Source: Ascochyta rabiei
Lineage: Eukaryota; Ascomycota; Dothideomycetes; Pleosporales; Didymellaceae
Direction of reading: 5' to 3'
NCBI RefSeq assembly: GCF_004011695.2
Contig: NC_082407.1
Location: forward strand, 310,001-374,000
Length of the DNA stretch: 64,000 bases
In this document: in pieces, positions 1 through 12,762 of the stretch
Position numbering within the stretch: the stretch's first letter is position 1
Layout of the letters: every line of letters starts with the position of its first letter
Translations under genes and position numbers: made by a program
Notes under the pieces: model-generated
What the model saw: the letters and a program-made list of their open reading frames with translations, nothing else
Told to the model about the DNA's origin: nothing
The model's database searches: none

Positions 1-492
1 GTGCCTTCTTTACTTGACCATCTGCTTGGTATACTATCGCGAGCTCGTGCTGGCTCAACAGCATATCTGGGTCATCCTTTTCTAACATGCTTCTGAGCCT
101 ACAACACTCCTCTAGCCACTTCGCAGCTTCTTTGATCCTCCCGTCAGCGCGTAAGCACCGACCTATCCGTAAACAGAGCTTTGCCTTCTCTTTGACACAA
201 CGATCGAGCTCGGCTCTGAGCAATCGTAGCGCGTGTGGTAAATACACCCTCCATACGACCCGGTTCTCCCAGTCGTTCGATGGAAAAACGTTCGCAACGT
301 GTCTCACCGCGCCCTCTACTATGCCACTTGCGTCGCTGTACGTCCTTATCCAAATCTTTGTCGCCAGGTGTACGAGCCGATGTATGTCGTACAGCTCATC
401 TGCCTCTGGGGTTTTGTCGGCACCCTCATCTTGCTTGCCCGCTCCGCTAGCCGCCTTTTTGTCGCTGTTCCGCCGTGCCAAGAACGAGTATC
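1..492 (-). pseudogene. TPR part of a Pfs/NB-ARC/TPR NLR gene, separated by a LINE
   Basis: Read on the minus strand from 492 downwards in the phase of the NB-ARC part at 7088-8107, the sequence stays open to the window edge. It encodes the post-NB-ARC region of fungal NLR proteins: an ELYDIHRLVHLATKIW segment, then HVANVFPSNDWENRVVW, then TPR-like helices with CLRIGRCLRADGRIKEAAKWLEE and the ELAIVYQADGQVKKA signature. Such tails of fungal NLRs are ligand-sensing superstructure-forming repeats. Codon usage is GC-rich and shows no RIP. The missing start and the 6.6-kb LINE between the two halves make this allele non-functional unless transcription begins inside. The TPR array continues beyond base 1, so the C-terminus is not visible. 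The assignment rests on the phase continuity and recognised family motifs. Confidence 0.88.
479..492. repeat. Left target-site duplication of LINE-1
   Basis: CAAGAACGAGTATC here is repeated exactly at 7088-7101, at the other end of the LINE. It lies in NLR coding sequence and marks the insertion point. The first three bases overlap ambiguously with the AATC tail at the right copy, so the duplication is 11-14 bp. Confidence 0.9.
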
Positions 493-599
493 ACCGAAAC
501 ACCAACTTTTGAATTTTGGGTATCCTTCTCAGGGCCCCAAAATTCGCTCTAATTCTACTCTACTTATCATCTCTGATACTGCAAAGCTACCTTAGCCAT

Positions 600-2790
600 C
601 CCTAAGGCAGTTGCCTGCCTAGGACAGATAGCTAATGTAACTCTAGTAAGGCTATTACTACCTGCTAACAGCTATACTAGGGCTAGAGAACTAGAATCCC
701 CTAGCTATTACAACCTACGCATTACTAAATAGAACACTAGAATTACTATAGCTCCCCTTAGTACTACAGCGCAGAACAACCTACAGCTTATCTCTACTAC
801 CCTTACCTAGCAGATATAGGCTATTAAAGAGGCTACTATTACACGCTACTATGTTACCTAGGCTATTGCTACTGCTATAGACACCTGTATTTAGACATTC
901 TAGTCTCCCCTTAAGACTGCTATAGCTACAGACCTGCAACAACAAATTACTGCTGCCCTAGAGGTCTCCCTCTAGGGCTACGCTACTGCTACCCCCCTAG
1001 AGTTACAACACTTAAATAAAGGCTGCTCTTTAAACCAGACCTAGGTAGGCATTATCTAGACCCCTAGAGACTTAGCACCTAAAAAACCTGCCCCTGCCCT
1101 GCTAAAGGCAGGCACTAGTACCAAATCTAGCTTAGACTAGCCCCTACTAAGGGCTAAACCTAAAACTAACTACTGTATACTTATTACTATGCCTACTAAC
1201 AAGAGGCTTAACCCCTTAGCCTCCTTTACTATTTAACAGGCTATCTGCAACGCTACTAAGCTTACCCTAAAAGATGTACCTAGAGCTATAACTACACGCA
1301 CTAGATAGGCAATTACCCTAGCTAATGCTACTATTTAGGAGCAACTCCTTAAACAAGAGAATAAGGAACTACTCCTCTAGGCAGTAGGGGGTAATAGCGC
1401 TGCCCCCCTATAGACCTAGATTAACTATGTAGTATAAGGAGTTACTAGCTCCTATAGGACCCTACTTAGGACTATAGTACTAACTACAGTAGATATAATT
1501 AAGAAGGAAGTCTACTTACAGACCTAACAAGCACTAGTTAGCTACTGCCCCTCTAGGCATAGCCTAAACTTATCTAGGCTTACTACCTAGATAATATCCT
1601 TTAGTACGCTGGCAAATAGGTTAGGGTTAGGTTAGGGTTAGGTCGCGTTACGTAACAACCCCTACCTAACCCTAACCCTAACCCGCGCTAACGCCTGCTA
1701 AGAGGGTTAGGGTTAGGTAGAGGTTGTACAGACTAGGGGTTAGGTAGGGGTTCAACACGTAACACAACCTAACCCTAACTTAACCCTAGCATTTAAGTGT
1801 CTTTACTACTGCTTTATATTTAGCTTTAGCTAGAAATAGGGATACAGCTCTTTACTTCTAGAACTAAAGTAGTAGTTAGTTATTATATTCTATTATTATA
1901 GAGCTACACTAGCTAGCTGCAGCAAAGTAGCTATAGCAGACGCTTAGTGCTGCTTATAAAAAGTAGGATAGTATTAGAACTAAAGTTGTAGTTTATTACA
2001 GCTTGTTATTATAGGGAAGGGCGTATTTTAGGTTATTTATTAAATTTCTCTACTACTCCTCTTAGAGTAAACTACGAACTACATGCTATAATAACCACGC
2101 TCTTATCTATTATAGTATAGTAGAGTACCCCTAACCTAACCTAAACCTAGGCAGACCTAACCCTAACCCACGCTAGTGCTACCCTAACCTAACCCCTACC
2201 CGCACTAGGGCAACCTCTACCTAACTACAGCCCCTAGTCCGTGCAACCTAAACCTAACCACGACCCCTAGTCTATACGACCCTAACCTAACCCTAACCCC
2301 TATATAGGGTACCTTAAACCTATTTACTAGTGTATCCTTTAGCATACCTATTTAACCCTTCTACCTATTTAGCATAAGTAATTATTTAAAGGAAATTTAT
2401 AAGAATAACCCTATTATTTAGCATAACCTAGGCTGCTAGGGCTTCTACCTTCCCTTATAATGTAACAAGGACGCCTGTTATAGTAACTGTAGCGCCTAGA
2501 TTACAGAGCATACTAGACCTACACACTAAGATTACACATAACTAAGTAAGTGTACTAACTACTATAGCCTACACCTAGCTATATATAGTTACTACCTAGC
2601 TAAACTACGCTAAACATATAGCACTGTTGTCTGCCTTATACGTAAGGAGCTTATAACTCTTAAAAAGACTAGACTCTTAGCTATAAAGCTACAAGATAAC
2701 AAAGCAGAGGGGCTTACTCCCTCTGCAGGAACTAACACAGCTAACTCTTAGCCAACACTAACGCTAATAGCCCCTGCTAGCTAAAGGCTG
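600..2790 (+). pseudogene. LINE-1 ORF1 (gag-like), RIP-mutated and interrupted
   Basis: With TAG read as Gln or Trp, the frame at about 1240-1570 gives a coiled-coil-like stretch (TIQEQLLKQENKELLLQ-type). The frame near 2425-2600 gives a run of cysteines and histidines spaced like the three CCHC zinc knuckles at the end of Tad-type ORF1 proteins (C..C..GF, C..C, H, then C..CY with TGC codons partly turned to TAC). ORF1 proteins of this clade bind the element RNA. The two parts are separated by the telomere-like block at 1617-2312, which is not expected in ORF1. Many stops; no open frame remains. Confidence 0.6.
1617..2312. repeat. Block with inverted telomere-like arms inside LINE ORF1
   Basis: The left end reads GGTTAGGGTTAGGTTAGGG and onwards to GGTCG. 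The right end, read on the minus strand, is GGGGTTAGGGTTAGGTTAGG running into GTCG. The arms are thus inverted copies of TTAGGG/TTAGG units, about 190 bp each, also holding mixed-orientation CCCTAA runs and a shared motif near GACTAGGGG. Between the arms (about 1800-2115) is AT-rich, RIP-like sequence without a recognised gene. Seen directly: the arrays and their inverted arrangement. Inferred: a separate small insertion, since the arms cut the LINE ORF1. I could not define a clean target duplication. Confidence 0.65.
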
Positions 2791-2979
2791 TGCTGTGCGG
2801 CTACTAGGCAGGGTAACCTTAATCTTACCTAATTATCTACCTACAGTGTTGTATCTACTTACACTGCCTCCTTGTCTACTTAGACTAAGGATACTAATAT
2901 AGCTAATAGCTCCTTATAAGAATACGCTAACACAATAGATAGTAGGGACTTTAGGTCTGCTAGGCTAATGTAAATAGGA

Positions 2980-5900
2980 GCTTACTCTACTATATTACCT
3001 TACTATAACTTATATTTAAAAAAGATATAGATGTTATATATGTCTAAGAGCTACATATATCTACCTAGAACTAGACATCTACATACCTAGGCTACACCTT
3101 AATTACACCTCTAGAAACCTAGAGTGCCTAAGATAAATAGGAGTACAAACGCCTCTAGGTAATAACCTACATTTACAGGACATAGTTATTACACGTAGAA
3201 ATTATATACCTACGCCTAACCTAAGACCTCCTCTAGGTTAGGGTAAACAGGTACTCTATTCTTAACGCCTATTAACTACCTAGGTAAGACAGCACACTAG
3301 AGTATATCCTGTAGCTCTGCCCCCCTTTACTTACACTAATTAGGGGGGACTTTAACATATAACATAAACACTTCTACCTAGGCGTTACCTCTAGCTAGAG
3401 AGGCGTAGTGCTGTTAGAATAGGTATATATAAATCAGATCTCCTATATAGAGGAGCCTAGTGTTATAACTTACTAGGCTAGAAATATACTAGACTTATTA
3501 TTTTCTAATATCCCCTATACGTAGACTATAGTCTATTACAATATAGATACTAGCTCTAATTACTACACTCTTATTATAACAATACCCTCTAGGGGATTCT
3601 ACACCCTAATAACCCTTAGGACCTAACTACCTAAAAGCTAACTTCCCTAATTTGCTAGTACAGTTTAGCTACTTGTCTAAGGCCTAGGCATACTACTAGA
3701 CTGCACTAAGAGTAAACTAGACTAAACTATTAACTAGCTTACCTCTGCTATTACAAGCGCGCTTAAGAAGTGCTTAGTTAAGATGCTAGAAGGGCGCACT
3801 GCTCCCTAGTAGACAGAGGAGTGCTAGTGTAGGTATAGAGCTTACCTAGCTATACGTAACTCTAGCAAGCTAAGACTAATATAAGCTATAAGAGACTTCC
3901 TTTAAGAAGTACAACAGGCTAAGCGCAACTACTAGAGATAGAAGATAGACAACGCGCAGGATAACAAGTCCCTCTATTAACTTATTAGGTGGTATAAACT
4001 AACCTATAACCTATAGAACTCCCCTATCCTCTTACAGGGGAAGCTAATTACTAACCCCCTAAGGAAAGTAGCTGCACTTTAACAGGAAATACTACAGCAA
4101 TTTAACAACTCTAACAATCTGCCTAACTAGAGAGACCCTAGTCTACCCCTCCCTAATCTCCCCTAGGACACTTTTGTATTATTAGAAGAAGTAGAGCAGA
4201 GTGTTATAGAAGTCTCTAGCACCTCCCTAGGCACAGATAAGATTACTATCTAAATACTTAAGGCGTGCTAGGCATTAATCTCTAAACTAATTTACTGTGT
4301 CTATTAACGCTGCCTTTAGTTAAGCCACTTTCTAGCTGCCTAGAAACTAGCTAAAGTGGCAATAATACTAAAAGTAGGTAAACCTAACTAGACGTTACCC
4401 TAGTTATAGCGCCCTATTGCCCTTCTCTCCTGCCTTAGGAAGGGCCTAGAATAGATCCTAGCCTGCCGCATTGCCTACACAGCTATAAATTAGGGGGTTC
4501 TTAGCCTCTAACATAGTAGCGCACTCCCTAAACGTTTAGTAATAGACCTAGTTACTACCTTTACTTATAACATAGAACACGCCTAGGCTATAGGCAAACA
4601 TGTTATAATAGTTACCCTTAATATATAAGGTGCCTTTAATACACTTCTATAGAACTACTTACTCTAATATATAGTATAACAAGGCTAGTCTATAAAACTT
4701 ATCTAACTACTTAAAAGCTTCCTTATAGGACGCCTTGTACAGGTCTAACTAGGTACAGTAATTACACCTTACTAGCTAGTAGCCTGCAGCACTCTATAGG
4801 GCTCCTCTCTCTCCTCTATACTCTATACACTGTACCTAGCTAAGCTACTTAACTAGAATTAGCAGCTTTACTTTAGGTACGTAGACAATATATGCATATA
4901 CTAGGCCTCTTACTCCCTTAACTAAAATATAGAACTACTTACCTAGGACATACGCTCTATACATGCCTAGGGTAATATAAACAAGGTAGCCTTTATACTA
5001 GAAAAGTAAGAAATAGTTTACCTTACTAGGCAGAGAGGGGGATATAACCCCTCTTGCTAAGTAAGCCTATCTCTAACTATCTAGGCTATCCCTATCACTA
5101 AGAATAGCTGCTAACTAGCACTTTAGTAGCTAGGGGTCTAGTTTAACAGGAAACTTACCTTTAGGTAACACGTTACTGTCTATAACACAGCAGCTAGGAA
5201 AATTACCTATTATATTTAAAGTCTAGCTAATATAGTATAAGGGCTACTAGCCTTAGTACTATAGAAGGTAGTTATAACCTGTATACTACCTATAATGCTT
5301 TACAGCACAGAGGCATAGTATAAGGGGTATACTAAGAACCTAGGCATCTAGTAAACTACTACTAGACAAGTTAGCACCTAGGTAGGATGGCACATTGCTA
5401 CGCTTAATAAAACCCTTACTATAGCTGCTAGAGCAGTTCTGCTAGCCTAGAGGACTACACTAAACGTAATACTACTAAGGGAAGCTAGTCTGCTGTCTGC
5501 GCCTATAGCTCTTAAACAGGCAAAGATAAGACTTATACTGCACTTACAAACTATAGATCTAGACTACCCCCTAGCAAAGCAGACTGTAATCTAACCTATT
5601 TAGAGGGGGAGGAAGGTAGAAGAGCTTCTAAAACTAAGATCTAAACTCTAAAGAATTAGGACCTTACTTCTAACAGCCCTACAGCCTGTTCTTATAGAGC
5701 TATACTATACTATAGGCTATAGGGAAGATCCTACCCTAGGCTAAACTAAGAAAGAAGCTGCAGCTAGTTTTCTTAAATAGTAGGACAACCTCCCCTATAA
5801 CGCAATTACTATCTTCTTTAACAGATTAGAGTAAATAGTTAAAGGTAATAAATGTGTAATATATAGCTATGCTGTATATTATAGAAATACATAAATAGAT

Positions 5901-6720
5901 ATAGAATAAGGCTTGCTTAATTCTAAGTTACACGTATTTAACGCAGAGGCTGTTAGGGCCTAGAGAGGTCTCTAACAGGTAATACGCTAACCCTAATTAC
6001 TCCTTAGGTAAATCTAGCTTTGCCTTAACAGCACGTCTATTATCTAGGGCCTCTAAGGAGACCCCCCTAAATTGTTACAATAGGCCTTTAGGTAATGCTA
6101 TGTAGCTATAGATACCTATAATATTAGAGTAAAATAGGCCCCTAGGCATATAGGCATACCTAGAAACAAGGCAGCTAACTAACTAGCAGATTAAGAGGCT
6201 AAGGCCCCCTATCCCCCTAAAGGCCTTGCGGCTACTACAATAGTTACTAGCCTGCAGTTAATAGCACGCGCCTATCTGCAGCTAGCAGAAAGAAACTAGT
6301 AGGTAAAGACAAGATCCTGTCTATTTAAATGCTACTTAGACTAGGACCTCCCCTACACACTATTCGCAACGCCTAGAACACTAGACCTCCCTAGGGGCAC
6401 GCTTGCGCGCCTCCTAGCTATCTAGACTACACATAGAGACTTTTAGTAGTACTACTAAAAGTTCTAATATAATAATACTAATATAACGTGCTCTTATAGC
6501 TGCCTTAAGGCACCTAACTATATAGTTTGCTGCCTAAAGGCGCTAGCAACTTTCTCTAGATAGCTGAAAAACAGTAGCTACCCCCTAGTCACCCTAACTA
6601 AAACGCAAAATTACCTGTCTAGGCTAATAGACCCCTCTAAAGGCTTCTTCTACCTTCTTACTACTACTGCGTTCTATACGTTAATATGCCTACAGTAGTA
6701 AAGAAACTACAGATAACGCT
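2980..6720 (+). pseudogene. LINE-1 ORF2: endonuclease, reverse transcriptase, RNase H
   Basis: Read with RIP stops ignored, the plus strand gives an AP-type endonuclease (about 2990-3620, with a GGDFN-like motif near 3335-3355, read GGDFNI), followed by an RT domain (about 4190-5350). The RT holds the stretch RPIALLS-like, then GLE, IACRIAYTAIN and a palm motif YVDN at 4878-4889, where YVDD has lost an Asp codon to G-to-A change. An RNase H region follows (about 5990-6260) and then a cysteine/histidine segment near 6480-6540, as in Tad1-like elements. The protein would copy the LINE by target-primed reverse transcription. It is dead here because of dozens of TAG/TAA codons. Confidence 0.72.
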
Positions 6721-7056
6721 AAAAATACAACCTACAACCTACTCTCTCTTTCCCTACTTTTTCTGTACCTACTTTTCCTTAGCATTTACAGGAAGTAGTT
6801 TAGCAGGCCTTAGCTTACTAAATAGTTCTCTTAGTTCCTAAGGAGTATAAGCACTGCTTATACACTAATTATCTAGTATATAACAGCGCGCACTTAGTGC
6901 ACATTGCCTATCTACACCTAGCAGTAGAAGACAAACAGACTACGCCTATAGCGCAACATAACCTATAAATTGCTTTCTAAGGTATCTATAAATCTATAGC
7001 CTAGCACGTCTTTTATGTCCCTAGGGAGACTGGAGTGGTTAGACGCTCCTCCTGAC

Positions 7057-7090
7057 GTTAAATAAATCAATCAATTAATCAATCAATCAA
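7057..7090 (+). repeat. LINE-1 3' tail of AATC/AATA units
   Basis: The tail is built of tandem AATC units with a few AATA/AATT variants, directly followed by the right target duplication. Short tandem tails instead of poly(A) are common in LINEs of the I/Tad groups. Confidence 0.85.
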
Positions 7091-7101
7091 GAACGAGTAT
7101 C
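7088..7101. repeat. Right target-site duplication of LINE-1
   Basis: Exact copy of the 14 bases at 479-492. On the minus strand these encode the last shared residues (Y-S-F-L) before the NLR frame enters the LINE tail. Confidence 0.9.
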
Positions 7102-8107
7102 CGCAGAGCGTACCGATGGCCTCTTCCATTTGAGCTTCTGATTGCACCCTCGGCAGTAACGATGGCGGGATGGCCTTCCACTCTACGCACGCCATGAACT
7201 GTAGCAGGCTTGCCGCCAAAGTATTCTGCTTGCGGATCAGGTTGAACGACACGATCCAAGTTGTCGCCACTGCGTTTGCTGAGTTCCTGTACCTCGTGTC
7301 ATCGTGAAATTCTCTGCTCATGACACTAACAAGATCCTGCTCTGTGCTGCGAAGTAGCTGCAGGTACTTGGTGATGGGCATACGGTTCCTGTTTAGATAG
7401 GCGGCTGCCTGCGCGATTGCTAGCGGCAGGCACATCAGCTCGTCTAGTAGTTCGTCCACTAGTTTGGTTGACGCTGGATTTTCACCAAGAAGATTTCTCA
7501 TGGCCAGTGACTTGGTGAGAAGCTCTCGTGCGTCTTGCAGGCCCATGGCTTCTAGCCTTATGACATCACCACGAGTCTTCTCGGCCACCCCGGGGGTACG
7601 CGTGGTGTACACAATCACACTCCTCTCGCTCTTTGGCAGGTAATCGACGATGCCCTTGGACTGCTCCGTTCCGAAGAAGATGTCTGGGTCGTCCGCGTTG
7701 TCCACTACCATTAGCCACCGGCTCACTCGACTCGAGCTCAGCCATGTCCTCACCAGCTCTTTGACGTCGTCTTTCCCGTCTTGCGCCTGCGGGATGTGCA
7801 GCACCCGCGCAATCTCAGCGCATGCCTGCTCAAAGCTCTCAATGCTCACCGCAGGCGCCCAGAAGATTGACCACTCTGGCTGTGCTTTCTTCACGGCATA
7901 CGCAAATTGCAGCGCCACCTGCGTTTTGCCCGTCCCGCCCAGGCCCTCTATGGACATCTCCTGGCAGTCCAGATCTACCAACAGCCGCTGCTGCAGCATA
8001 GCAAGCTCGTCGCGTCGTCCAATGAATTTCTTGTTCTCTTGGAAGGGAATATAGTAGGTCGGCGTGGCTGCCCATTTCATTAGTGCTGATGCATTGTCTG
8101 AAGACAT
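7088..8107 (-). pseudogene. NB-ARC NTPase part of the interrupted NLR gene
   Basis: The visible protein has a P-loop GLGGTGKT at residues 55-62, an RNBS-B-like VIVYTTR at 164-170, a Walker B LMVVDNADD at 132-140 and a CLPLA (GLPLA-like) motif at 226-230, in order. It begins with the FIGRRDEL segment that precedes NB-ARC domains of fungal NLRs. These act as ATP-driven switches in non-self recognition and programmed cell death. The frame runs into the LINE at GYSFL and resumes at 492 on the other side. Upstream, the Pfs part ends at 8118 in another frame, so either this ATG (8107) is internal to a frameshifted gene or the two are joined by an unusually short intron. No RIP is visible. Confidence 0.88.
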
Positions 8108-8117
8108 GGTAGCTACA

Positions 8118-9092
8118 CTAACCGCTCGCGTCTCTCATCATCTCCTCCGCTGTGCGTGCCTTTGTTACATCAGCTGCCGGTATTACAGACAGAATTTCCT
8201 TGGCATACGCCGCTGCCGTAGCTGCTGCGTACGGCTGCCATCTCTTGTTCTTATGTGAGTCTGCGTAATCACACACCCCACGCACGACAAGACACGGGAA
8301 GCTGTTCATAAGCCCTGCTGCCTCCATCTCGAAGCACAGCACCCCGCCCAGGCCTTCGCTTAGCTGTTCTCGCAGCGCAGCGTCCTTGATCACCTGGTTG
8401 CCTGATGCGATGGTCCCGTAGTGTACAACCACTTCTTGTCTCCGTGCTTCCCGAGGAATTTCGCGCTCTTTGCTGCACTTCAGACACGTGGCTCCTTTTC
8501 CGGCATGCTCGTAATCCACCTCGAAAAGCCTGTCCAAGCCGGCAGCGTTGCGGCTGAAGTCGGGCAGGCTGTCCAGCTTGGACAAATACTCTAGTAGCTT
8601 GCCCCTCCCTCTTAAGTGCTTGGCCCGTAGGTTTGATACTGCGTTCAGTAGCACCATCGGTGGTGTGTTCAGCGCTCCTGTGCGCTCGAACCCGTTTATT
8701 GTAGCCTTGCCAAAGTCGTACTGTACTACTCCGCCGTGCGTTTGGTACGGTTTGCTTACTACCACGTCTCCAAGCCGGACATCTGCTTCGTCACTCGGTA
8801 CACCGCCGCCGATACCAACCATCAGGCCAAACCGCGTTGATGAGAAAGTTGACTTCATATGCGTAGCGACTGTCGCGGCCGAATGAGTACCTAACTGCCC
8901 TTCAGGCAGACAAGATATAACCACGTTGTGTTCGCCAACGCGTCCACAGGTGTAAATGTTTGTGTCGTGAGCGTTGTTGTATGGAGGGGTGCTGTGCTCT
9001 TCGTCGAGCATCTCCTGCGCGGCCGCCAACTCGACGGGCAATGCGCACACCCATCCTACTGTGTAGCTGTCAAGGCTCAAAGTCTTATTCAT
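8118..9092 (-). pseudogene. Pfs (nucleoside-phosphorylase-like) N-terminal part of the NLR
   Basis: A 324-residue frame starting MNKTLSLDSYTVGW contains the hallmarks of the PNP_UDP-like (Pfs) domain found at the N-terminus of fungal NLRs: GWVCALPVELAAA (13-25), CLPEGQLGTHSAA (61-73), GIGGGVPS (93-100), RLGDVVVS (106-113), FEMEAAG (254-260) and RGVCDYADSHK (271-281). Length is that of a complete domain. In NLRs this domain is thought to act as effector or nucleoside-metabolising module. The frame ends at a TAG eleven bases before the NB-ARC ATG, whereas homologous proteins are usually one chain, so a +1 shift or micro-intron separates them. The ATG at 9092 is the first in frame and fits the family start. 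Classed as part of a broken gene because of the LINE downstream. Confidence 0.88.
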
Positions 9093-9146
9093 TTGCGATT
9101 ATCGGAAAAAGGAATGCGGAAAATGATGTTGCGAAGACGTCGGACT

Positions 9147-9860
9147 GTACAGAAACGACGGGGTGGAAGGCTGTCAGCTTTTCGACCCCTCACTCATCCT
9201 TACGACGTGATCATCACATGTCGTCAGCATGGGGCAGGCTGAGACAGGCTGTGATATTCTTGGTCTGAAGATGCAGGCGAATGATAGGGGCGGCAAGCAC
9301 AGCCTGCTTATTGGTTAATTGTGGGATTTGCTAACACGCTTAGTCAATCTAGGCAGCATAGCCTTAATTATTATCTAGTAATTTAATAGTTATTATAAGA
9401 GCAAGGAGCGGGAGCTAGAGTAGTAGAAGCTACTAGAAAGATGAGTGGTGCATTGCGAAGCTGAAACTGCTGCTGTTGTGCAGGAGAGGGGCCATGTCAA
9501 CTAGTACAGAAACAACGGGATGGAAGGCTGTCAGCTTTTCGACCCCTCACTTATCCTTACAACGTGATTATCACATGTTGTCAGCATAGGGCAGGCTAAG
9601 GCAGGCTGTAATGTTCTTAGTCTAAAGATGCAGGCAAATAATAGGGGCAGCAAACACAGCCTACTTATTAGTTAATTGTAGGATTTGCTAACACGCTAAG
9701 TTAATCTGGGCAGCATAGCCTTAATTATTATCTGGCGATTTGATGGTTATTATGAGAGCAAGGAGCAGGAACTAGAGTGATAGCAGACACTAGAAAGATG
9801 AGTGGTGCATCGCGAAGCTGAAACTGCTGCCGTCGTGCAGGAGAGGGGCCATGTCGACCA
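9147..9860. repeat. 357-bp tandem duplication upstream of the NLR, mosaic RIP
   Basis: The segment beginning GTACAGAAAC at 9147 recurs at 9504 (period 357) and ends at GAGGGGCCATGTC in both. Differences are nearly all C/T and G/A. Copy 1 is degraded in its second half (about 9355-9420), copy 2 in its first half (about 9510-9700). No coding frame is shared by the copies. It starts only about 55 bases upstream of the NLR start codon, so it occupies the probable promoter of that gene. Confidence 0.85.
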
Positions 9861-10333
9861 GAGTCGTGGTGTTGACTGGGGTCACGGCAGTCTACCCTAA
9901 TAAAGTCTAGTTTGTCATCCTGCTATGCCTGTAAGCTTATGCATTGTGACGTCTCGACGATACCTAAACTTCCCTGTGCAGCTTTTTCGCAATCTTAGGG
10001 CCAAGACAGTAGCAATAACAGATCCTTACGCCGCCTACATCTATCTACTATCGTGCACTACAAGCACTAGGGTTTCTTGCTCATTCTCGAATGAAGTCGT
10101 ATACAGTTATTCAGTTCTGTAAGTGGCTGTCCACCATTGAACCAACATAAGCTGAGGAAGGGTAAGCCTCAGCGGGCTGGATGCTAGAGAACAGAACCAG
10201 CAACCAATGTCTAGATGTAGAAAATAACTTTGCATACGCTGTTGCTTCGCTAATAGTCTGCGTAGGATGCTACTTCTTCACAATTCCAGTATATGTAAGC
10301 TCCACTACCCTACTAATAAGAATCAGAAAATGA
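9861..10333. other. Intergenic, no feature recognised
   Basis: Mixed-composition sequence between the tandem duplication and the CorA-like gene. It may include an upstream exon and promoter of that gene, but I found no convincing coding frame or motif. Confidence 0.5.
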
Positions 10334-10344
10334 CTGTTCTCTAG

Positions 10345-11575
10345 ATTGGTAGAACAAGACGTATTTTGCGCACAAATCGAACCAGCACCGGAGCTTGTAC
10401 AGTTCTTCCAGATCCCTAGTCACCTCCTTACAGCCGTATACAGACGCTCAAACGGGTTCTTCAGCTCTACGGATGCTTTTAATAAGGATGGCCACCTTCG
10501 ATCTTGCTGTAAGATATCTACAAAGCATCTTTCAAGCAAGCACCTACTCACTGCACATTACAGACTCGTAGTTCCGTGTCCTGGTCAAGGTGACCTCTCG
10601 AGATCCCAGCTCAAGCTACACCTGGCACGAGATGACCTTTTGCTCGAAATGGGCATCCAGTCGTTGCGCAATCCTGTGCATTGGTGCGTCTCCATTGTTC
10701 AAAGAGTTGCTGCAAGCCGCTCTTACCCAGCAGGGAACGACGTTACCGCTTTCAGAGCCCTATTCGCTACACTTACCTCTGCTCGAAGCGATCGTTTCCA
10801 TGCAGGACCTGTCAGTATGGTCCATGTGCGACGTTGTGCGTAGCTTTGAGAAGGCAAGAAAGGTGAAACATCAAGATGTCGATAGTTACTAACGAAGGTC
10901 AGGACCGCTCACTCATAGCTCGTGAGCCTCAACATTTTTCTACAATGCACGACGCGGCGCGTCACGCCATTCACTCCTTTGAAACGCTTACCGTGACTGT
11001 AGAGACTGCTGAGGCTATGCAACAACAGGTTGCGTACCTTGCCGACAAGAGCAAGCAGCTTAGTGGAAGTGAGCCGAAGACGTGGCTCCAAGTGCGAATG
11101 CGCATGGAACTCCAAGTCCGGATGTTTCACAACTTGCTCTTGAGGTCGCAGGCAAACAAAGAGCGGCTGCAGAACGAAATTGCTCTGGTAAGTCGCCTCG
11201 CCCACCCACCGATGCAGATTCACTGACGCGAGGCCAGGCATACAATATGATTGCTCAGCGCGACAGCCAGGTCATGGCAGGGCTTGGAGAGGCAGCAAAA
11301 CTTGACAGTGGGGCCATGAAGACGATCGCTATTGTGACGATGGCATTCCTTCCCCCAACCTTCTTATCAGCATGTCCCCCCCTGCCATCACACGAAACTT
11401 GACTGACAGCAGGCAGGCCATCTTCAGCATGAGCTTCTTCAGCTACAATCCCGAGTTGGGCGGAGCGGGATGGTCAGTGTCGAGCAAGTTCTGGGTGTAC
11501 TGGGTCTGCGCCATACCACTGACATCTCTAACGCTGGCCATCTGGTACTGGCGGCAGAGAAGAGTGGGAAGCTGA
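10345..11575 (+). CDS. CorA-like divalent-cation transporter family protein, spliced
   Basis: Joined exons 10572-10862, 10903-11187, 11238-11369 and 11417-11575 give one continuous phase. The protein carries FRVLVK, SYTWHEM, the PLLEAI..MQDLSVWSMCDVVR helix, HDAARHAIHS and MRMELQVRMFHNLLLRSQANKERLQNE coiled coil, then AYNMIAQRDSQ, MKTIAIVTMAFLPPTFLSA (first membrane span) and FWVYWVCAIPLTSLTLAIWYW (second span). This is the C-terminal half of the large fungal CorA-like family, membrane proteins related to magnesium channels; the GMN signature of true CorA is not seen, so transport is uncertain. Intron 1 (10863-10902, 40 nt) has a CTAAC branch site, intron 2 is 10 nt longer, intron 3 is GC-AG. 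The 5' exon (about 10345-10508, ..NKDGHLRSC) does not join cleanly to 10572: either a missed intron or a frameshift. No start codon is assigned. Confidence 0.75.
11370..11416 (+). other. GC-AG intron of the CorA-like gene
   Basis: The 47-bp interval starts GCATGT instead of GTATGT and ends CTGACAGCAGGCAG. Removing it joins PPTFLS to AIFSMSFFSYNPE in phase, as in related proteins. The donor is therefore non-canonical, or a formerly GT donor has changed. Confidence 0.75.
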
Positions 11576-12762
11576 AGAAGCATCAAACCAATGAAATTAA
11601 AGCTAGTAGCAAAGTTATAAACATTAAGCTAATATTGAAGAGCCTTCATAGAGGGTAGTTGAACGTAGAAAAAGACAGGCTTAGTCTTGTTGATGTTTGT
11701 CAGCCGAATGTTCGCATTCATCAGTCCCACTACCCATAGAAACACTCTGCATCTCTAAGCCGACACTTCGTACACTTGCGGACTCTTTAATTTGCACGCC
11801 TCATGAAAGCCACTTATGGTCTGTAGTGCAACGCAATCTAGCAAATGGCACAAGCTCTGCACGGCATATCCGTCTCATCCCAGTACACCACGCGTTTGTC
11901 TCAGCTCGTCAACTGAAACAACTGGACCCAAAACAGCAGCTGGACTTCAAAGCGCTCCTGCAATGAGTGGGGCATCTTTTCGTCTCGCACCGGGCGAACA
12001 GTGACAACTGAGACAGGAGGGAATGGCCAAAGCGCTGCCTCGTTTGCAACAGTGCGCGGCCACACGTCCGGAAGGCATTATGGTACATCACAACCGCGAT
12101 GCATGCATGGGCGGCTATCCACAGCTGGGCTGTTGATCTGATGAAACGCCGCTTGAAATCTGCAACCGTGTCTCTTCATAGCAGCTCGTACTCAGTCAGG
12201 CATGTTTGATTGTGAGTCGAAAAAGCGAAAGTGGCTTCAGGGCAGGGCTGTCGCTCATCGCTTGAATCGTGTGCTACGAGACACGGGGAATTGGCCGATT
12301 CAAAAGCGAAAAGAGAAACAAGAATGTCAAGTTGGAATTTGTGATCTCTCGCTGCCGGCCCAGCTCAACTTGATGCTTCTCGTACCATTTCCCCTTGATC
12401 TTCATCGCCGTTCATTGTCATACCGTCTTTCGGCGTTCCATGAACATCGCCACTTCAACAATAGTCCCGCCCTTCTATGGTGGAATCAACAAAAAAGGCA
12501 CTTATTGCCATCATGTAGTATGTCAACGTTCACGGATGACCTGCTGTTCAGAGCATCAACATTCTTTCTCACTTCTGCTCGACAGGCCTTTGACTTGCTC
12601 AAAAAGACAAGAAGACGGCAGTTTCTGCTTTCGTGTGGTATTCTAAGTCCTGGTCATGACCCGATGTTCTGCTCACCACTCGTGTGCACCTTTCGAAAAT
12701 TCGTCGGTCCATTTCGTGATCGTATATAATTGGGGGACTCGAGGTAGAACGCCGAGATTTGT
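11576..12762. other. Intergenic, no convincing gene
   Basis: Several 60-175 codon frames overlap on both strands (for example 12202-12729 plus, which does begin with ATG) but none shows recognisable motifs, and frames of similar length occur on the other strand. I call nothing here. Confidence 0.5.

Follow-up and report, generated by a model that had tools for sequence, protein, structure and literature searches.

A long interspersed nuclear element (LINE) flanked by a 14-bp target-site duplication interrupts a minus-strand NOD-like receptor (NLR) gene of the PNP-NB-ARC-TPR type in the fungus Ascochyta rabiei. The locus lies in a stretch of 64,000 nucleotides (contig NC_082407.1, positions 310,001 to 374,000 of assembly GCF_004011695.2), referred to here as the window, which belongs to a 40.9-Mb assembly of 23 contigs. 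Such an insertion had been claimed in an earlier reading of the sequence, the original prediction, and is confirmed by two exact copies of the duplication and by two halves of the gene that tile its homologues. The LINE carries a nested hAT-type element and is heavily altered by mutations of the repeat-induced point mutation (RIP) type, which also mark two short duplications belonging to the NLR gene. It is highly probable (roughly 0.9) that LINE insertion, nested hAT insertion and RIP of the LINE and of the NLR duplications together explain the locus, with the loss of any full-length receptor.

The duplicated sequence, CAAGAACGAGTATC, occurs as exact direct copies at positions 479-492 and 7088-7101. 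These copies flank both borders of the LINE (493-7087, plus strand), and their identity gains no base on either side. A search for CAAGAACGAGTATC allowing up to two mismatches returned these two places only; in a control of 100 shuffles the mean was 0.29 matches and two matches were reached in three. The copies are 6609 bp apart, i.e. 3 x 2203, and the NLR frame is therefore kept across the insertion. At the level of sequence, the continuity of the gene is better settled by the tiling of homologues than by this arithmetic. Minus-strand positions 8107-7088 align to residues 308-644 of the homologue P0002 (66% identity). The left piece, L032 9490-8819 (minus strand), aligns to residues 641-848 of the same protein (63% identity), L032 being the sequence that extends to the left of the window, with its position 9001 at window position 1. 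The same two halves fall on residues 313-637 and 634-854 of P0003. The overlap of the halves on the homologues consists of four residues, YSFL, which are the translated 14-bp duplication. The in-phase resumption of the NLR across 6.6 kb thus stands as originally proposed, and the uninterrupted homologues on whose existence that proposal hung are found in P0002 and P0003, both tiled by the two halves.

Read on the minus strand, the gene comprises a first exon with a PNP_UDP_1 domain (8123-9092), a predicted 55-nt intron (8068-8122; one of four stop-free splice choices, with the same junction in the public protein P0001) and a second exon. The latter includes the NB-ARC part up to the insertion point (7088-8067) and resumes beyond the LINE at 1-492, where the TPR part begins, which extends past the left window edge as far as L032 8498. 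PF01048 (PNP_UDP_1) and PF00931 (NB-ARC) exceed their cut-offs, and TPR_12 reaches 26.1 bits, under its own cut-off of 30.1. The three domains stand in one gene and in this order, order and continuity being taken from the homologues. The two named full-length homologues that rank highest are 74% and 70% identical and measure 944 (marked partial) and 1127 aa; homologues at 70-74% identity come from Stagonosporopsis vannaccii and Macroventuria anomochaeta. The nearest NB-ARC match within the genome besides the query is 41% identical, among 10 matches listed, query included. The same kinds of domains are combined in fungal PNP_UDP/NB-ARC/TPR NLRs, as far as the available parts of a survey describe them (PMC9815663); unlike those receptors, the allele described here is interrupted by a LINE and has two stop codons in its TPR array. 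By family resemblance, the receptor may have a function in allorecognition or immunity. The words NLR and NB-ARC are absent from the main text of a population genomics study of A. rabiei (PMC11893274).

The LINE is 6,595 bp long, antisense to the NLR gene, and sits between its NB-ARC part and its TPR array. When its translation was read with X at stops, RVT_1 (PF00078) was recognized at 34.6 and 30.9 bits (cut-off 29.6). The reverse transcriptase stretch used as search query (4017-5123, plus strand) contains 34 stops (21 TAG and 13 TAA). An APE-type endonuclease domain, PF14529, scores 19.4 bits, under the cut-off of 27.4, and is present in the 12 best relatives of the element (P0209-P0220). 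The element has a target-site duplication and a simple-repeat tail of AATC units (7063-7087, plus strand) and is devoid of long terminal repeats. A Pfam search of its 5' frame pieces gave no family.

The element is the only copy found in the assembly. A search with the whole LINE gave 42 matches, consisting of itself, copies of the nested element and short self-matches; its 3' part returned itself and two short self-matches and its 5' part itself alone. None of these searches, which score best candidates only and are not proof of absence, found a second copy. A six-frame search of the genome with the reverse transcriptase gave 73 matches, namely itself, one at 44% identity and 71 at 34% or less. 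The match at 44% belongs to a kindred LINE on C8 (L064, C8:1259001-1269000), which aligns with the present one in five nearly gapless blocks. The two share 1,359 of 2,529 aligned bases (54%) and represent different families; the low nucleotide identity rules out the C8 element as RIP partner or parent. L064 has open frames of 503 and 276 codons, no stops in its reverse transcriptase and a GC content of about 50%, unlike the reverse transcriptase matches elsewhere in the genome, which are stop-ridden.

The composition of 493-7087 bears the mark of RIP. TpA/ApT is 2.58 and (CpA+TpG)/(ApC+GpT) is 0.51, values that satisfy the thresholds printed in the available part of the description of The RIPper (PMC6714961). 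The mutated motif is pyrimidine-C-purine (YCR, with Y for pyrimidine and R for purine) rather than plain CpA. With the nested part excluded, C/(C+T) in the LINE falls to 0.02-0.03 for YCA and 0.03-0.04 for YCG, with 0.30-0.34 for RCA and 0.46-0.51 for RCG; the right NLR flank, taken as control, gives 0.64-0.72, 0.39-0.46, 0.63-0.74 and 0.53-0.54, respectively. YCA and YCG are thus nearly exhausted in the LINE and RCG hardly touched. Compared with the control, RCA indicates that purine-preceded CpA is also reduced, by about half. The original description of the LINE as RIP-dead is supported.

Counts from alignments, on which composition has no effect, give the same picture. Across 205 bp of six copies of the nested element, the C-to-T state was met elsewhere for 63/64 YCA, 13/19 YCG and 13/62 RCA sites, and for 4/87 RCG, 0/180 RCY and 5/238 YCY sites. 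In a 352-bp tandem duplicate on the promoter side of the NLR gene, the changed sites amount to 17/37 for YCA, 10/18 for YCG and 3/65 for RCA, next to 1/22 RCG, 5/94 RCY and 0/88 YCY. Both strands show the C-to-T changes, which are concentrated in repeats, as in RIP. YCA is affected most, YCG comes near it, and purine-preceded CpA is affected far less.

The promoter-side duplicate consists of a proximal copy (9147-9498) and a distal copy (9504-9855), both RIPped, and starts 55 bp upstream of the NLR start codon. It is the sole direct repeat of at least 30 bp reported in positions 1-24000, and a DNA search of the genome with 9130-9870 returned no other place. The copies differ at 39 of 350 compared positions; transitions make up 36 of the mismatches, and 27 of these fall at YCR. 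YCR sites were changed in 27 of 55 cases and other sites in 9 of 269 (Fisher P = 8e-17); the distal copy has 17 of the YCR changes and the proximal copy 10. Left of the window, the TPR frame is open down to its stop at L032 8498-8500 apart from two stop codons, at L032 8816-8818 and 8768-8770, which lie 183-233 bp left of the window edge. These belong to an array of 123-bp units. Between units 2 and 3 there are 4 differences in 123 positions; three of them are C-to-T or G-to-A in YCR context, and two of these three create the stops. Over all ordered pairs of units, 9 of 56 YCR sites are changed versus 20 of 296 others. A search with the TPR half returned 87 proteins, none named A. rabiei. The NLR gene, originally described as unmutated in contrast to the LINE, is so for its coding sequence inside the window; the description fails for the TPR array and for the promoter region.

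These marks allow another course of events, in which RIP of the TPR units and of the promoter had already broken the NLR gene and the LINE struck a pseudogene. The two YCR-type stops and the promoter-side mutations are independent of the LINE and speak for it. On the other hand, the 645 codons that precede the insertion are free of stops, and one allele does not reveal the order of events. This alternative is possible, and we regard it as somewhat doubtful.

A full-length receptor cannot be made from the LINE-bearing allele. The upstream frame enters the LINE tail for two codons and then meets a stop (7079-7087, minus strand; GYSFL-ID), giving 652 aa that end in GYSFLID. The spliced 5' part (645 aa) matches the public protein P0001 ('ADP binding [Ascochyta rabiei]'). 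P0001 differs from the truncated frame at one position in 652 (residue 595, I/V) and ends in the same LINE-derived letters; the second public record therefore has the same right-hand junction. From its open frame, a truncated PNP-NB-ARC protein without TPRs could still be made. Because this frame stays open, the knock-out by the LINE is no more than probable: of the transposon knock-out claimed originally, the loss of the full-length receptor holds, and the PNP and NB-ARC part may have escaped it.

It may accordingly be asked whether the NLR is shortened rather than dead, the 652-aa protein working without TPRs. Consistent with this, the second A. rabiei record has the open frame with its single, conservative difference. 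Besides P0001, seven homologues among the 120 listed (P0008, P0015, P0047, P0057, P0073, P0077 and P0097) are likewise 630-720 aa long at a coverage of at least 96%. At least one of these short forms, P0047, is nevertheless marked partial, and the long homologues that top the list carry TPRs. A working short form seems unlikely on this evidence, without being negligible. The short models P0057, P0073 and P0077, from Aspergillus and Penicillium, have 639-646 aa and end shortly before the segment in which the LINE is inserted; they represent either a natural short form or a common annotation break.

The borders of the mutated DNA are sharp. Counted per 250 bp, YCR sites number 0-5 in the interior of the LINE (751-7000) and 9 in 501-750, compared with 26-43 in 1-500 and 7001-9250 and 14-16 in 9251-9750, within the promoter-side duplicate. 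The immediate flanks of the LINE are not depleted of YCR sites, and the original remark that RIP did not visibly leak into them is borne out. Unmutated sites persist in the first 105 bp of the LINE (to 597) and in its last 56 bp (from 7032). Since mutation stops just inside both ends, RIP recognized the LINE itself, short of its ends. RIP acts in the sexual cycle and needs a second similar copy. Such a copy is present for the promoter-side duplicate and for the TPR units. For the LINE, the homology recognized being the LINE itself, a second copy must once have been present, and we infer that it was lost or segregated away. As an observation in its own right, the distance of about 55-105 bp between the LINE borders and the mutated DNA (493-597 and 7032-7087) is a possible measure of the end effect.

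The element nested in the LINE (1605-2334) is a non-autonomous hAT-type element of 730 bp with terminal inverted repeats and telomere-like repeats. It is flanked by 8-bp duplications of TCCTTTAG (1597-1604 and 2335-2342). Its ends read TACGCTGGCAAATAGG and, inverted, TACACTAGTAAATAGG, with the terminal inverted repeat TACGCTGGC. Copies of 90-94% identity occur elsewhere in the genome; C3, C4 (two), C5 and C20 hold copies. All six copies whose ends were displayed, the nested one included, have 8-bp duplications, each copy its own. The C3 copy (L066 504-7085) is a relative of 6.6 kb and contains a hAT dimerisation domain (PF05699, 35 bits, cut-off 21.4); in a Pfam search of five of its six frames, four frames were without any family. 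Over 493 aligned bases the C3 relative and the nested copy differ at 30; in the direction of the nested copy, 11 of these differences are C-to-T and 10 are G-to-A. At several units the nested copy has TTAGG(G) where C3 has TTGGG(G), which makes the telomere-like look partly a product of RIP; other TTAGGG units are common to both. The family is characterized by TTGGGG/TTAGGG-like subterminal repeats that RIP can turn into telomere-like TTAGGG. Insertion of telomere sequence was rejected as the source of the TTAGGG runs in 1605-2334, which belong to the hAT-type element and at several places correspond to TTGGG(G) on C3.

The nested element might itself have triggered RIP, which would then have spread into the LINE. 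Its 90-94% identical copies elsewhere, set beside the single LINE copy, lend this some appeal. Yet YCR depletion is flat across the LINE, shows no decay with distance from 1605-2334 and ends inside the LINE borders, so that spreading from the nested element is ruled out as the trigger and keeps a very small probability at most. That the assembly joined unrelated sequences, a suspicion fed by the single-copy LINE and by a window drawn from one assembly, is scarcely credible in view of the exact border duplication, the tiling of homologues and the same protein end at the right junction of a second record.

LINEs insert by target-primed reverse transcription. By this route the present LINE entered exon 2 of the PNP-NB-ARC-TPR gene in antisense orientation, producing the 14-bp duplication, and the non-autonomous hAT-type element inserted into it. 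RIP then mutated the LINE to near exhaustion of its YCR sites, presumably triggered by the second LINE copy that later disappeared. Mutation of the same kind marks the NLR gene's own duplications, the promoter-side repeat of 352 bp and the TPR units of 123 bp, where there are two stops. The allele could give at most the 652-aa PNP-NB-ARC protein without TPRs.

Several points weigh against this history. No insertion-free A. rabiei allele was found, and the empty site is deduced from homologues at 66-74% identity; the presence/absence polymorphism originally suggested is likewise unsupported so far, the other A. rabiei protein having the same truncated end. The second copy that RIP requires was not found for the LINE. 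The order of the LINE insertion relative to the promoter and TPR changes is not readable. The TPR evidence comprises few sites: when the diverged unit 1 is paired with the others, 20 C-to-T/G-to-A differences outside YCR stand against 6 within it, and the evidence for RIP of the TPR array thus rests on units 2 and 3.

The motif deduced here can be set beside what is described for other fungi. In Zymoseptoria tritici RIP likewise produces C-to-T changes in duplicated DNA on both strands, with 240 of 242 mutations at CpA and the preceding base not given in the passage available (PMC10294615). A. rabiei departs from it in that YCG is nearly as affected as YCA and RCG hardly, and the preceding base matters. 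In transposons of Leptosphaeria maculans 90% of RIP sites are at CpA (PMC4352252), and a kingdom-wide survey reports a common CpA preference (PMC12543289), the available passages of both giving no preceding base. As far as the available parts of the sources go, the TpCpG bias of Microbotryum violaceum transposons likewise involves a trinucleotide that includes the base before C (PMC2621366; PMC4352252), although this species is a basidiomycete with CpG only, while in A. rabiei both CpA and CpG are targets, whichever pyrimidine precedes. The partly covered literature did not show a YCR motif in the RIP of ascomycetes, which is weak evidence of novelty. PF00145 has five matches at three places of the genome, candidates for the RID-type methyltransferase. 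On balance, and with moderate confidence, we take RIP of A. rabiei to read YCR, with CpG nearly as good a target as CpA after a pyrimidine and hardly one after a purine, and to reach repeats as short as the 123-bp TPR units and the 352-bp duplicate. On this view, NLR genes with repeats would be permanent targets of the defence of their own genome, and the LINE only the largest of three RIP marks at the locus.

A relation between RIP and NLR genes is also described in the available parts of a study of Podospora anserina (PMC1805685). There, the NLR-family pseudogenes NWDp1 and NWDp2 were inactivated by RIP, akin to the present locus, a RIPped Tad3-2-related LINE lies downstream of HNWD1, and RIP is proposed to add mutations to NLR repeats in their diversification. 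In Podospora whole genes are RIPped, with low ratios at least 750 bp beyond them, whereas at the present locus RIP has hit the LINE insert together with two short internal duplications, and the edges are sharp.

Farther along the window, positions 10876-11580 contain open frames with introns that by eye resemble the C-terminal part of a CorA-like membrane protein. Positions 25000-64000 are AT-rich (GC 22-38% per kb) and exhausted of YCR sites like the LINE, with a border about 15 kb from the upstream end of the NLR gene. In this AT-rich part (24.5-64 kb) C/(C+T) ranks the four contexts as the LINE does, with 0.01 for YCA, 0.07-0.10 for YCG, 0.11-0.17 for RCA and 0.54-0.62 for RCG.

The disruption of an NLR gene by a LINE is an ordinary kind of event, and the locus joins other fungal NLRs interrupted by transposons, with unusually good documentation from its junctions, its homologues and a second record. 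The YCR specificity is its most interesting by-product. Single-copy flanks free of mutation, a 6.6-kb insert in which it is saturated and a 352-bp duplicate in which it is half saturated adjoin each other and form a natural measure of the RIP motif and of how close to a border of homology RIP acts. TTAGGG units made by RIP in hAT-type elements could mislead scans for telomeres. If the YCR motif is general in these fungi, indices based on CpA only would miscount RIP, and the motif would limit how the RIP enzyme reads DNA. Overall, the RIP marks at this locus suggest that RIP touches the receptor genes' own repeats.

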